From: Acidobacteria bacterium SCN 69-37
Lineage (GTDB): Bacteria > Acidobacteriota > Vicinamibacteria > Vicinamibacterales > SCN-69-37
Reading direction: 5' to 3'
Assembly (NCBI GenBank): GCA_001724025.1
Contig: MEDJ01000011.1
Location: forward strand, 75,851-122,489
DNA length: 46,639 nt
Shown: positions 38,744-43,194 of the stretch, piece after piece
How the letters are laid out: every line of letters begins with the position of its first letter
Position numbering within the stretch: position 1 is the stretch's first letter
Made by a program: the position numbers and the translations under genes
Notes under the pieces: model-generated
The model's input: the letters and a program-made list of their open reading frames with translations, nothing else
Database searches by the model: none
Told to the model about the DNA's origin: nothing

Positions 38744-39982
38744 ATGTCATCGACGCCGTTCCCGCCTGCCGTGTCGTCCTCCCGTTCGTCTTCTTCGTCG
38801 ATCGCGCCTCTGACGCTGCTGGCCGGTGCACTGATCGCCGGCGTGGCATGCGGCGCGTCCCGGCCGCCTGTCCCGTTCGATCCCGATCAGGTACACGAGT
38901 CCGGCGGGCATCGCTTTCGTCTGGTCACCGTTGCCGATGGGTTGGATCACCCGTGGTCGCTCGCGTTCCTGCCCGATGGCGGCATGCTCGTGACGGAGCG
39001 CTCGGGGCAACTGCGCCTGATCCAGGATGGCCGTCTGGCGGATGCGCCCGTCAGCGGCGTGCCGGCCGTGCGCGTGGGCGATCAGGGGGGACTGCTCGAT
39101 GTCGTGCTGCACCCGGATTTCACGACGAACCAGCTCGTCTATCTCAGTTATTCGAAGCCGAGTGCCGACGAGGCGAGCGGGACGACCGCCGTTGTGCGCG
39201 GCAGGCTCGACGGCCGGGCGCTGACGGACGTCGAAGAGATTTTCGAGGCCGACGCCTGGGCGGAGAGCATGGCGCACTACGGATCACGGCTTGCGTTCGA
39301 TGCCGACGGGTTCCTGTTCGTCACGGTCGGCGATCGTCAGGTGCCGCCGGCCGGCGACCTGGAGGCGCATCCTGCGCAGCGACTCTCGAACCATCAGGGC
39401 ACGGTGCTCCGCCTGCACGCCGATGGCACGGTGCCCGCCGACAATCCGTTCGTGCAGCGTCCCGGGGCGAAGCCCGAGATCTGGAGCTACGGACACCGCA
39501 GTCTCCAGGGATTGCTCGTCGATCCGGTGACCGGGGACGTCTGGGAGAGCGAGCACGGTCCGCAGGGCGGCGACGAATTGAACCTGATCCGCCCCGGCGC
39601 CAACTACGGCTGGCCGGTGATTGGCTACGGCGTCAACTACGGGCCCGAACGCCGGCCCATCCACGAGTCGTCATCGCGGCCCGGCATGGAGCAGCCGGTG
39701 CGGCACTGGGTGCCGTCGATCGCGACGTCGGGCCTGATGCGCTATGCGGGCGACAGGTTCCCGAACTGGCAGGGCAACCTTTTCCTCGGCGGCATGAACG
39801 GGACGACGTCGCTGACGCGGCTGGTGATGGACGGGACGGCGGTGGCCAGCGAACACGCGATGCTCGGTACCGATCTGCGTGTGCGCGACGTGCGCGCCAA
39901 CGCGGCGGGCGACATCTTCCTGGTGCTCGACGATCGGGCCGGTGCGAAGGGCCTGGTCGTCCGGTTCGCACCGGTGGAGTAG
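38744..39982 (+). CDS. PQQ-type soluble aldose sugar dehydrogenase, lipoprotein
   Basis: Periplasmic glucose/sorbosone-dehydrogenase-family beta-propeller (Asd/YliI type), 412 aa. An N-terminal Ser-rich stretch plus a hydrophobic helix ends LIAGVAC, a lipobox. The propeller begins GLDHPWSLAFLPDGGMLVTERSG and has GGLLDVVLHPDF, YGSRLAFDADGFLFVTVGDR, YGHRSLQGL (with the His and Arg that contact PQQ), WESEHGPQGGDELNLI and NYGWPVI. It oxidises aldoses with PQQ; no PQQ-synthesis genes are seen, so the cofactor may be scavenged or made elsewhere. ATG 38744 is chosen because it gives the signal peptide. Confidence 0.93.
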   Translation: MSSTPFPPAVSSSRSSSSSIAPLTLLAGALIAGVACGASRPPVPFDPDQVHESGGHRFRLVTVADGLDHPWSLAFLPDGGMLVTERSGQLRLIQDGRLADAPVSGVPAVRVGDQGGLLDVVLHPDFTTNQLVYLSYSKPSADEASGTTAVVRGRLDGRALTDVEEIFEADAWAESMAHYGSRLAFDADGFLFVTVGDRQVPPAGDLEAHPAQRLSNHQGTVLRLHADGTVPADNPFVQRPGAKPEIWSYGHRSLQGLLVDPVTGDVWESEHGPQGGDELNLIRPGANYGWPVIGYGVNYGPERRPIHESSSRPGMEQPVRHWVPSIATSGLMRYAGDRFPNWQGNLFLGGMNGTTSLTRLVMDGTAVASEHAMLGTDLRVRDVRANAAGDIFLVLDDRAGAKGLVVRFAPVE

Positions 39983-39992
39983 GGGAGTCGCG

Positions 39993-40026
39993 GGCGGGAA
40001 CACACGGCTGGATTCCCGCCTGTTTT
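39993..40026 (+). terminator. Intrinsic terminator of the PQQ-dehydrogenase gene
   Basis: GGCGGGAA / TTCCCGCC, perfect 8-bp stem, 12-nt loop, then TGTTTT; 10 nt after the stop. Confidence 0.75.
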
Positions 40027-40030
40027 GCTG

Positions 40031-40036
40031 TATACT
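40031..40036 (+). promoter_or_regulatory. -10 box of tRNA-Phe
   Basis: TATACT, 36 nt before the mature tRNA, directly after the terminator of the previous gene. Confidence 0.45.
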
Positions 40037-40071
40037 TCCTCAGTTCCGGACGTCCCGTCCGCGCCTCGTGT

Positions 40072-40147
40072 GCCGAGGTAGCTCAGTTGGTAGAGCATAC
40101 GACTGAAAATCGTAGTGTCGCCAGTTCGATTCTGGCCCTCGGCACCA
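40072..40147 (+). tRNA. tRNA-Phe (anticodon GAA)
   Basis: Cloverleaf: acceptor GCCGAGG/CCTCGGC, D arm GCTCAGTTGGTAGAGC, anticodon stem TACGA/TCGTA with loop CTGAAAA, T arm with TTCGATT, encoded ACCA; 76 nt. Confidence 0.97.
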
Positions 40148-40172
40148 TTTCGTTGCGATAGCCCACGGACCG

Positions 40173-40202
40173 CCGGCACGCTCGACCTCGCGTGCCGGTT
40201 TT
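40173..40202 (+). terminator. Intrinsic terminator of tRNA-Phe
   Basis: CCGGCACG / CGTGCCGG perfect 8-bp stem, loop CTCGACCTCG, then TTTT; 25 nt after the tRNA. Confidence 0.8.
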
Positions 40203-40223
40203 CGGCACGTGTCAGCCACCCCC

Positions 40224-40251
40224 TTGGCTTTCCTGGAATTTCTGTTACACT
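40224..40251 (+). promoter_or_regulatory. Promoter of leader ORF and 92-aa gene
   Basis: TTGGCT (40224-40229), 16 bp, TACACT (40246-40251). Expected start near 40258, four bases before the ATG of the 20-codon ORF. Confidence 0.55.
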
Positions 40252-40261
40252 CGATCTCGTG

Positions 40262-40324
40262 ATGACCCCGCTCATCCATCGTCGCATCGCTCCCATTCAG
40301 ACCTCGCCGCGCACCATTCGCTGA
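40262..40324 (+). CDS. 20-codon leader ORF
   Basis: ATG 40262 to TGA 40322-40324 encodes MTPLIHRRIAPIQTSPRTIR, basic, with consecutive Arg codons and several Pro and Ile. It begins at the predicted transcript start of a good promoter and ends 4 bp before a GC-rich hairpin, followed 92 bp later by a 92-aa gene. That is the layout of an attenuation leader peptide, but no matching amino-acid biosynthetic gene follows. Whether it is translated cannot be told from sequence. Confidence 0.4.
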   Translation: MTPLIHRRIAPIQTSPRTIR

Positions 40325-40327
40325 GCT

Positions 40328-40344
40328 GCGCGCCGAGGGCGCGC
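40328..40344 (+). promoter_or_regulatory. Hairpin between leader ORF and 92-aa gene
   Basis: GCGCGCC / GGCGCGC around GAG, followed by a pyrimidine-rich tract (CCATTCTTCTGC, later TTCGTTTTCTTCTT). Possible attenuator. Confidence 0.4.
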
Positions 40345-40416
40345 TCCATTCTTCTGCTCAGCCGTTCGTTTTCTTCTTACAACAGAGCTTCGCTCACTTG
40401 ACCTGGGAGGGTCACG

Positions 40417-40695
40417 ATGTTGGACGTCTATCGCCTGCTCGCGGGCCGTGCCGGTACGCCGGATGCACTGGAACTGGCCCAGGAACTCACTGATTGGCAC
40501 GACACGATGGTGCGGCATGAGCGCGTGCAGACCGCGCTCGGGACCGTGTGTGTGTCCGATGACTGCCCGCACGCCGAAGCCCGGGATCTCTGGCGTCGCG
40601 CCCTGAGCATTCTGGGGCCGGCCGCCGAGGAATTGAAGTTCCTCCGGGGATCGGCGGGCGGCGCCCAGGTGGCGGCATCGGGGGGCGCACGATGA
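40417..40695 (+). CDS. Uncharacterised 92-aa protein
   Basis: Not recognised. The product is mostly helical and soluble (MLDVYRLLAGRAGTPDALEL; ELTDWHDTMVRHERV) with a CVSDDCPHAEARDLW segment in which two Cys and a His could bind a metal or form a disulfide. The C-terminus is Gly/Ala-rich. No signal peptide or membrane helix. Coding status is supported by TGGGAGGG upstream of ATG 40417 and by its own promoter and leader. It precedes the lipid operon by 131 bp, but a separate promoter candidate lies between. Confidence 0.6.
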   Translation: MLDVYRLLAGRAGTPDALELAQELTDWHDTMVRHERVQTALGTVCVSDDCPHAEARDLWRRALSILGPAAEELKFLRGSAGGAQVAASGGAR

Positions 40696-40741
40696 TGCCG
40701 ACTCGTGCAATACTGCGGAACTGTCACCCCAGCACTCGACA

Positions 40742-40770
40742 CGGACAGCGTTCGGGAACATCGGTATCCT
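40742..40770 (+). promoter_or_regulatory. Promoter candidate of the cfa operon
   Basis: CGGACA (40742-40747), 17 bp, TATCCT (40765-40770); leader of about 50 nt with GAAGGGGGG before GTG 40827. Confidence 0.4.
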
Positions 40771-40826
40771 GATGGCGGTCGTGGCAGCAGGCGCGGCCCC
40801 ATCGGTTCAGCGAAGGGGGGCCCAGC

Positions 40827-42065
40827 GTGCGTGCCAGAACCGGCAGTGTCACCCCGGGAGCCGCGTGGACGGCTGTCGGGACCTTCGAGGAATGGTGCCT
40901 GGCGCGCATCCGCCAGGCCCTCGCGGGCGCCAGCCTGCGCGTGCAGTTATGGGACGGACGCAGTATCCGGCTCTCGGATCACCTGCCCGTGGCGACGGTG
41001 GTGGTCCGCGATCGCTGGACGCTCGTCCGTCTGCTCGTCGACAGCGACGTGGCGTTCGGCGAGGCGTACGCCAGGGGACGGATCGAGGTGCAGGGCGACC
41101 TGGTCGCCGCACTCGAGACGATCGATCGCGCGTGCGCCGGCCGGCCGTTCCAGCGTCGCCGGCCGCGCGCGCGTCCCATCGCGCCGGGCGCTTCGCGACA
41201 CAACGTCCACACCCACTACGATCTCGGTAATCAGTTCTACCGCCTCTGGCTCGACGATCAGCTGCTCTACACGTGTGCCTATTTCGCGCACCCGGGCATG
41301 ACGCTCGAGGAGGCGCAGCGCGCGAAGATGGAACACGTCTGTCGCAAGCTCCGCCTGCGGCCCGGCGATCGCGTGGTCGAGGCCGGGTGCGGGTGGGGCG
41401 CGCTGGCCCTGCACATGGCCCGGCAGTACGGCGTCATCGTCCGCGCGTACAACATCTCCGCAAACCAGCTTGCCTATGCGCGCGACAGGGCCGCGCGCGA
41501 GGGGCTCGATGACCGGGTGACGTTCATCGACGGGGACTACCGCTCGATCGAGGGCCCGGCCGATGCGTTCGTCTCGGTCGGGATGCTCGAGCACGTGGGC
41601 CGGCACAACTACGCGGATCTGGGCCGGGCGATTGCCCGCGTGATCGATCCTGCGCGCGGCCGCGGCCTGCTGCACTTCATCGGCCGCAACGCCCCGCTCG
41701 AATTGAGCGCCTGGATCGACAAGCACGTGTTCCCCGGAGCCTATCCACCAGCCCTGAGCGAGGTCCTGCCCGACGTCCTCGAGGCATCGCGGCTGTCGCT
41801 CATCGACGTCGAGAACCTGCGCCTGCACTACGCCCGCACGCTCGCGTGCTGGCACGCGCGCTTCGAGGATCACGTCGACGAGGTCCGCGCGATGTTCGAC
41901 GACGCCTTCGTGCGCACGTGGCGGCTGTATCTTGCCGGATCCGAAGCGGCGTTCCTGGCCGGCGACATGCAGCTGTTCCAGGTGGTCTTCGGCCGGCCGC
42001 TCGACAACGACCAGCCGTGGACGCGGCAGGACTGGTACGAGCCGCACGCCGATGCCGTCCTGTGA
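40827..42065 (+). CDS. cfa: Cyclopropane-fatty-acyl-phospholipid synthase family protein
   Basis: SAM-dependent methylene transfer to unsaturated acyl chains in membrane phospholipids, 412 aa. The N-terminal lipid-binding domain (about 1-125) is followed by HYDLGNQFYRLWLD, YTCAYF, the SAM site VVEAGCGWGALALHMA, VGMLEHVG and the late LHYARTLACWHARF. All match CFA and mycolic-acid cyclopropane synthases. GTG 40827 has GAAGGGGGG upstream. It overlaps the next gene by 14 bp, a strong operon sign. The exact chemistry (cyclopropanation, methylation) is open. Confidence 0.93.
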   Translation: MRARTGSVTPGAAWTAVGTFEEWCLARIRQALAGASLRVQLWDGRSIRLSDHLPVATVVVRDRWTLVRLLVDSDVAFGEAYARGRIEVQGDLVAALETIDRACAGRPFQRRRPRARPIAPGASRHNVHTHYDLGNQFYRLWLDDQLLYTCAYFAHPGMTLEEAQRAKMEHVCRKLRLRPGDRVVEAGCGWGALALHMARQYGVIVRAYNISANQLAYARDRAAREGLDDRVTFIDGDYRSIEGPADAFVSVGMLEHVGRHNYADLGRAIARVIDPARGRGLLHFIGRNAPLELSAWIDKHVFPGAYPPALSEVLPDVLEASRLSLIDVENLRLHYARTLACWHARFEDHVDEVRAMFDDAFVRTWRLYLAGSEAAFLAGDMQLFQVVFGRPLDNDQPWTRQDWYEPHADAVL

Positions 42066-43194
42066 CGTCCTGATCGTTGGCGGCGGACCGGCGGGATCGA
42101 CGTGCGCCCGTGAACTGGTGCGCGCCGGGGCCGATGTCCTGCTGATCGATCGGGCCCGGTTCCCGCGCGACAAGGTCTGCGCCGGCTGGATCACCCCGGC
42201 CGTCGTCGACGCGCTGGATCTCGATCTCGTCGACTACGCCGCAGGTCAGACGCTCCAGCCGTTCCGCGGGTTCCGGACCGGATCGATCGACGGCGGGAGG
42301 CGGGCGACCGACTTCGGTCGCGTGGTGAGCTACGGCATCCGCCGCCGCGAGTTCGATGCGTACCTGCTGGCCCGGTCCGGCGTGCGCGTGCTGGCGGGAG
42401 AACCGGTGCGCGAACTGCGGCGGGACGGTCGGGGCTGGCGGGTGAACGGCGAGATCCACGCGTCGATGATCGTCGGTGCCGGCGGGCACTTCTGTCCCGT
42501 CGCGCGTCACCTGAATCAGGCGGCCGACGGTACGACGCACCACGAGCAGGTCATCGCCGCACAGGAGATCGAGTTTCGTCTCGACGCGGCCTCGTCATGT
42601 CGTGTCGACGGCGAGTGGCCGGAACTCTTCTTCTGGCCCGATCTGCGCGGGTACGGCTGGTGCGTGAGGAAGGGCGATGTGCTGAACGTCGGCGTGGGGC
42701 GCCTGGATCCCGAGGCGTTTCCCGCCACCGTCAGAGAGTTCGCCGCGCTCGTCGCACGCCTGGGAATCGTGCCGGGCGGCGTGCCCTCGCCCTGGAAGGG
42801 GCACGCGTACCTGGTACACGCCACCTCGCAGCGGCGCGTCGTCGATGACGGCGTGGTGCTGGCGGGGGATGCCGCCGGCCTGGCGTTGGCACCGAGCGGC
42901 GAGGGGATCCTGACCGCCATCGAGTCGGGCCTGATGGCCGCGGCCATCGTGATCGCCGCAGGCGGCTGCTATACGCACGAGACCCTGGCCGCGTACGACG
43001 CCGCCCTCACGCACCGGATCGGTCCACGCGGCCGTCCGGGGCCCCTGGCGCACCTGCCGGGCTGGATCACCCGACTGGCCTCACGCGCGGTCTTCGGATC
43101 GACCTGGCTCACGCGCCGGATCCTGATCGAGGACGGCTTCCTGCACACGAGACGGCCGCCGATGAACCGGGGCGGGACGGCGCGTTCCGTCTGA
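42052..43194 (+). CDS. Geranylgeranyl reductase-like FAD oxidoreductase
   Basis: FAD-dependent oxidoreductase, 380 aa. N-terminal dinucleotide fold DVLIVGGGPAGSTCARELVRAGADVLLID; FPRDKVCAGWI, a form typical of the geranylgeranyl-reductase/UbiH-like group; VGAGGHFCPVARHL; WPDLRGYGWCVRKGDVLNVGVG; and the FAD-binding VLAGDAAGLALAPSGEGI. These enzymes saturate isoprenoid or lipid double bonds. Start ATG 42052 lies inside the cfa gene, so the two are coupled; both act on lipid double bonds, which suggests one lipid-modifying pathway. Confidence 0.85.
   Translation: MPSCDVLIVGGGPAGSTCARELVRAGADVLLIDRARFPRDKVCAGWITPAVVDALDLDLVDYAAGQTLQPFRGFRTGSIDGGRRATDFGRVVSYGIRRREFDAYLLARSGVRVLAGEPVRELRRDGRGWRVNGEIHASMIVGAGGHFCPVARHLNQAADGTTHHEQVIAAQEIEFRLDAASSCRVDGEWPELFFWPDLRGYGWCVRKGDVLNVGVGRLDPEAFPATVREFAALVARLGIVPGGVPSPWKGHAYLVHATSQRRVVDDGVVLAGDAAGLALAPSGEGILTAIESGLMAAAIVIAAGGCYTHETLAAYDAALTHRIGPRGRPGPLAHLPGWITRLASRAVFGSTWLTRRILIEDGFLHTRRPPMNRGGTARSV

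Follow-up and report, generated by a model that had tools for sequence, protein, structure and literature searches.

The window, by which we mean the whole 46,639-nucleotide stretch of Acidobacteria bacterium SCN 69-37 DNA that was analysed, contains on its forward (+) strand a putative promoter, a short leader ORF, a region of predicted RNA structure with a pyrimidine-rich linker, and a gene for a 92-aa protein. A tRNA-Phe(GAA) gene (40072-40147) is the upstream neighbour and lies outside this unit, its 3' end about 76 nt ahead of the promoter. The promoter (40224-40251) is of sigma-70 type, with TTGGCT as -35 (40224-40229), a 16-nt spacer and TACACT as -10 (40246-40251), the latter extended by a TG at 40243-40244 to give TGnTACACT. 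It agrees with 8/12 consensus positions and so falls under the 9/12 cut-off of the promoter tool, which is why it is missing from the tool's list. The original prediction had called it strong; TTGGCT-16-TACACT is present and plausible, but the adjective is overstated and the promoter is an ordinary one. The pattern TGnTAnnnT also occurs shortly 5' of the leader ATG in two relatives (loci L070 and L090), and the L090 leader is preceded by a TTGGCA-17-TAGAAT promoter.

The leader ORF (40262-40324) has 20 codons, reads MTPLIHRRIAPIQTSPRTIR up to its stop, and is basic with no acidic residue, as had been predicted. Its ATG lies 10 nt past the -10 element, which would make the transcript leaderless or almost leaderless. 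Beyond the structures around the leader stop comes a pyrimidine-rich linker (40345-40400). C exceeds G in the linker at 9/9 leader loci, and the predicted leader of about 70 nt agrees with a hairpin-to-ATG distance of 72 nt. The Shine-Dalgarno sequence GGGAGGGT (40405-40412) sits in a possible small hairpin GACC/GGTC (40396-40416), and a similar GAC-TGGAGG-GTC arrangement is found in L070 and L090. Pairing between linker and Shine-Dalgarno site is within chance save for one linker (p 0.04). The 92-aa gene follows at 40417-40695. At 40827-43194 a cyclopropane-fatty-acid-synthase-like gene overlaps an FAD-dependent oxidoreductase frame; in L070 relatives of both adjoin each other about 2 kb from the 92-aa gene. 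As it is not adjacent to the 92-aa gene there, the cyclopropane-fatty-acid-synthase-like gene (40827-42065) was rejected as a member of the unit.

An undescribed protein family

The 92-aa protein was unrecognised in the original prediction and remains so, with no Pfam, NCBIfam or PDB-sequence match, and its frame is conserved in relatives; we conclude that the predicted protein is real. It carries W27, H28, D29, M31, V32, H34, R36, C46, C50, P51, H52, W59, F75 and L76. The family alignment has 14 invariant columns, including W27, H28, H34, R36, C50, W59 and F75, and C46 and P51 or its neighbours are nearly invariant. Searching genome contigs with the single 92-aa query found nothing and searching them with a profile gave 13 loci. 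Among 162 genomes from the order, profile searches placed the family at 23 loci in 22. When 396 genomes sampled across the phylum were searched, there were nine matches, all in the same order, and every named family match belongs to the Acidobacteria, including Vicinamibacterales and Vicinamibacteraceae. Judged by these searches, the family is confined here to one acidobacterial order.

AlphaFold2 predicts a confident helical fold (pLDDT 86.8) with helices at residues 15-41 and 51-72. Fold searches against solved and viral structures gave no reliable relative, the best hit, RelH (Z 4.7), being within the tool's noise, and no viral relatives of the family were found. Matches of the family to tify and GspJ were discarded as sub-threshold noise, and comparison with localization factors gave no match in Pfam/NCBIfam. 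The absence of any Pfam/NCBIfam enzyme match also agrees with the prediction that the downstream gene is no amino-acid enzyme. A regulatory or stress role for the protein is a guess.

The gene neighbourhoods vary. By sequence reading, the genes near the family in some other genomes seem to encode universal-stress proteins and, in one case, a glutamate dehydrogenase, and a neighbour in another genome resembles a ribosome hibernation factor through a sub-threshold S30AE match. The glutamate dehydrogenase gene is whole in L082 and apparently a remnant in L075, where the sequence upstream resembles glutamate dehydrogenase gene ends and the apparent remnant is joined to the 92-aa homologue. In the genus g8 (L084-L087) a gene of 191-235 aa with the motif P[VLI]GYWQRR lies directly 3' of the 92-aa homologue, overlapping or close to it; the one such protein scanned had no Pfam or NCBIfam match.

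Leader peptides are conserved up to the stop codon

L070, from the congener G003, has a 39-codon ORF that retains HRRI....TSPRTI, with its stop one codon further on, in upstream DNA that has otherwise diverged from the window. The aligned leaders of this pair are HRRIAPIQTSPRTIR and HRRISLDATSPRTICC. Their score of 46 as the best short-ORF pair compares with a null maximum of 29 from 60 dinucleotide shuffles of the upstream regions. The conserved blocks are in frame and run to a stop in both leaders, and they include the synonymous differences CAT/CAC and ATT/ATC. At L090 (genome G160) a 35-codon ORF ends in QRRIFLAHASASRT and matches more weakly (RRI.....S.RT), differing from the other two leaders by whole codons; its score was reached in 4/60 shuffles against L070 and 29/60 against the window, so that, taken alone, its likeness to these leaders is suggestive only.

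The four species of g8 all have a 29-30-codon upstream ORF ending RRSFDM.[VL]R[IV][FY]PI.GRR, with the ATG 29-30 codons 5' of the leader stop kept in 4/4. Nucleotide identity over the C-terminal 51 nt, which encode the common 17-residue C-terminus RRSFDMRVRIFPIAGRR, is 84-96%, against 21-64% in the 33 nt before and 32-54% in the 50 nt past the stop. This short segment is thus better conserved than the downstream 92-aa homologue gene itself (71-77%). Of the codon differences, 12/28 are synonymous in the reading frame, whereas the two shifted frames give 4/28 and 6/31, and the remaining changes are conservative (I/V, F/Y, V/L, A/V) except for one R/S. Strong matches to the g8 leader peptide occur once per genome, exclusively ahead of a 92-aa-family gene.

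Lengths of the leaders differ (20, 39, 35 and 29-30 codons in the window, L070, L090 and g8) and the N-terminus varies freely, a combination with C-terminal conservation up to the stop that, on sequence, would be typical of cis-acting leader peptides. Conservation of the leader peptide and of the reading frame of the 92-aa gene, on which the original prediction had staked itself, was found in relatives for both, albeit for the peptide in a small sample of three genomes in the window's group and four in g8. A short ORF with peptide-level conservation in relatives therefore lies between promoter and gene, as is looked for in a uORF attenuator, and it is this conservation that raises the arrangement above chance.

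A core R-[IV]-[FYAS]-[PL] is visible by eye in all nine leaders. Cross-group similarity scores among the nine were not significant, and for this reason we do not claim a single leader family; the leaders of L073 and L074 are only candidates, that of L074 doubtful. No second use of the leader sequence was found in a search across the family and the order, and none of the nine carries a RAPP/RGPP-like C-terminal motif as in Sec/YidC arrest peptides. The window's leader has no Rfam match, the tRNA alone reaching threshold there.

A predicted stem spans the leader stop

The last leader codons of the window can form the 5' arm of a stem (40302-40338) in which CCTCG-C-CGCGCA (40302-40313) pairs with TGCGCG-C-CGAGG (40327-40338), leaving the leader stop in the loop; the stem is seen in the centroid fold. 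The corresponding arms are ACCTCG-C-CGCGC with GCGCG-T-CGAGGT in L070 and CCTCGGCC with GGCCGAGG in L090, and CGAGG begins at +10, +11 and +10 past the leader stop in the window, L070 and L090 respectively. The inner pairs of L090 are unlike those of the other two, yet pairing is kept. In g8, GGTCGCCGG (or GGTCGTCGG) at the leader end pairs with CCGGCGAC(C/G) at +25 to +27, and this stem encloses a hairpin GGCTC/GAGCC that in L086 is GGTTC/GAACC. The two groups, in unlike sequences, thus appear to show the same plan, a post-stop arm complementary to the leader's last codons, and a ribosome sitting at the stop would therefore keep the stem from forming.

Shuffle tests of the stem gave p 0.27 for the window, 0.003 for L070 and 0.05 for L090 (combined 0.003). 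The window stem is no more stable than its shuffles (z 0.12), and duplex energy by itself does not set the g8 stems apart from chance (combined p 0.19). Energy tests alone being weak, support for the stem comes from conserved position and complementarity.

The 7-bp GC hairpin of the original prediction, GCGCGCC-GAG-GGCGCGC, is indeed present at 40328-40344, beginning 3 nt past the leader stop and followed by a C/U-rich stretch. It overlaps the stop-spanning stem, and the two are mutually exclusive. As drawn it is not conserved, with a GAG-loop analogue in L090 and nothing in the nearest relative, L070, so that of the conservation proposed for leader peptide and hairpin the peptide held and the overlapping stop-spanning stem took the hairpin's place. 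An optional outer stem GCTGAGC/GCTCAGC around this hairpin (40320-40362) appears in the MFE structure and is unseen in relatives. The post-stop fold with the hairpin (z 0.37) and the whole-leader fold (z -0.45) are no better than chance for DNA of 65-70% GC. No intrinsic terminator (GC stem then U run) was detected in 39000-42000. With the window's hairpin and leader fold within chance and its promoter at 8/12, the case rests on the relatives.

Most homologues lacking the leader lie near a sigma-54 activator gene

A sigma-54 activator gene is present within the fetched stretch at 14/23 loci, and the one adjacent activator that was scanned has XylR_N, V4R and sigma-54 domains. Eight loci (L071, L072, L076, L077, L081, L083, L088 and L089) have an upstream inverted repeat resembling TTTCA-N3-TGAAA, in some cases, such as L081, together with a -24/-12-like TGGCCCGCAACTTGC; the repeat is found at 0/9 leader loci. 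Activators accompany 1/9 leader loci versus 13/14 loci that lack a leader (p 0.00016 by Fisher's test, with no correction for relatedness and limited by short contigs such as L073), and the one exception is L074, the doubtful leader, whose activator is GAF-like by sequence reading. Leader and activator therefore look nearly mutually exclusive, and the activator with TTTCA-N3-TGAAA may represent a second, non-leader mode of control in the family. G160 holds two copies of the gene, L090 with a leader and a sigma-70-like promoter and L089 beside a sigma-54 activator. That a ligand-binding XylR_N/V4R activator with TTTCA-N3-TGAAA sites in some lineages of the order and a nascent-peptide ribosome sensor in others are interchangeable and report the same stress or metabolite is an idea we consider unlikely.

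Discussion

Leader peptide, stem complementarity and 92-aa gene are conserved together among the relatives compared. We think that the unit is probably a cis-acting leader-peptide attenuator or switch acting on the 92-aa gene. The idea of such a switch was already part of the original prediction; the leader peptide, a stop-adjacent stem and the gene have stood up to comparison, and the hairpin as drawn and a terminator have not. In the mechanism we propose, the sigma-70 promoter would drive a leaderless or nearly leaderless 20-codon ORF with conserved C-terminal residues, and the last leader codons with the first ~15 nt past the stop would form a GC-rich stem whose loop contains the stop codon. 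A ribosome at the leader end would cover the stem's 5' arm and the first nucleotides past the stop. Were some signal, together with the nascent chain, to make it linger there, the stem would be prevented; were it to terminate and leave, or never to arrive, the stem could form. Expression of the 92-aa gene would in turn depend on the state of the stem, by way of access to the Shine-Dalgarno site or of early termination, possibly Rho-dependent, in the C/U-rich linker. Here leader translation, ribosome dwelling, a signal, the direction of the effect and action of the peptide in cis are what we infer.

Foremost among the rival explanations is an RNA-only element, a structured 5'-UTR serving as thermosensor or protein-binding site, in which the ORF is incidental or a passenger that keeps the structure. 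High nucleotide identity in g8, stems built from the last leader codons and an internal hairpin GTCGA-TCCT-TCGAC within the RRSFD codons of the g8 leader all fit such an element, as does the modest third-position excess (just 6/10 variable sites, p 0.08), and RNA structure could be the source of part of the g8 peptide conservation. What makes this reading the less likely one, at perhaps one chance in five, is the coding character of the changes: in-frame blocks with synonymous differences between the window and L070, whole-codon differences in L090, near-exclusively synonymous or conservative changes below a retained ATG in g8, and an encoded motif that ends exactly at the stop codon.

It is also conceivable, if improbable, that the leader's own promoter and start codon serve a small protein of 20-39 aa with a conserved C-terminus that acts in trans, its linkage to the 92-aa gene being operonic; a Sinorhizobium trp leader peptide has been reported to act in trans (PMC7298713). 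Variation of length and N-terminus with only the residues near the stop kept would be more typical of action in cis, and the post-stop RNA is conserved as well. We hold just as improbable an ordinary 5'-UTR with a chance short ORF and a pyrimidine-rich ribosome standby or S1 site, free of regulation: the window's structure alone is nowhere beyond chance and upstream DNA that is rich in GC often contains short ORFs, but the conservation of the L070 leader peptide is far outside the null and four g8 species conserve theirs. Amino-acid attenuation of the trp, his or leu type was rejected, with no codon run in the leader and no such enzyme downstream.

The leader-peptide switch we favour is a known kind of control in a new example from some soil Acidobacteria, attached to a new protein family. 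Arrest leaders such as SpeFL/OrgP (ornithine) and TnaC (tryptophan) are conserved near their ends, where stalling is tied to Rho-dependent termination. Conserved residues near the leader end are a shared feature; no sequence homology was shown, however, and the gene downstream here is no polyamine or tryptophan enzyme. Mycobacteria have cysteine-responsive leaderless leader ORFs ahead of regulated genes. Ours is likewise a short ORF, predicted to be leaderless or nearly so, and the L070 leader ends in CC, but cysteine sensing is no shared property, since a Cys run is absent from the window, L090 and g8. In MsrDL, the leader of msrD in Streptococcus, a ribosome held at the leader stop controls the following gene by standing in the way of a hairpin immediately downstream (PMC10314930), which shows the stop-codon mechanism proposed here to be feasible. 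Both have a short leader ORF, and here too a ribosome at the stop is proposed to block an adjacent stem; MsrDL is MYLIFM, senses macrolides and works with an intrinsic terminator, whereas our peptide is longer and basic, with neither terminator nor resistance gene. The ToiL uORF of topAI-yjhQ in E. coli acts on a downstream small-protein gene by itself pairing with the Shine-Dalgarno sequence, and its first seven residues are conserved (PMC12121999). Here too a uORF precedes a gene for a small protein, and masking of that gene's ribosome-binding site may occur, but leader-Shine-Dalgarno pairing is within chance, for which reason a ToiL-like switch was rejected, and it is the C-terminus that is conserved.

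The literature searched contained no account of a leader-peptide switch from this acidobacterial group. The C-termini TSPRTI and RIFPIAGRR are new candidate sequences for holding ribosomes near a stop codon. The family also offers a natural contrast, in that a sigma-54 activator takes the place of the leader at some homologous genes, and experiments that exploit it could get at what the protein does and at the signal involved.
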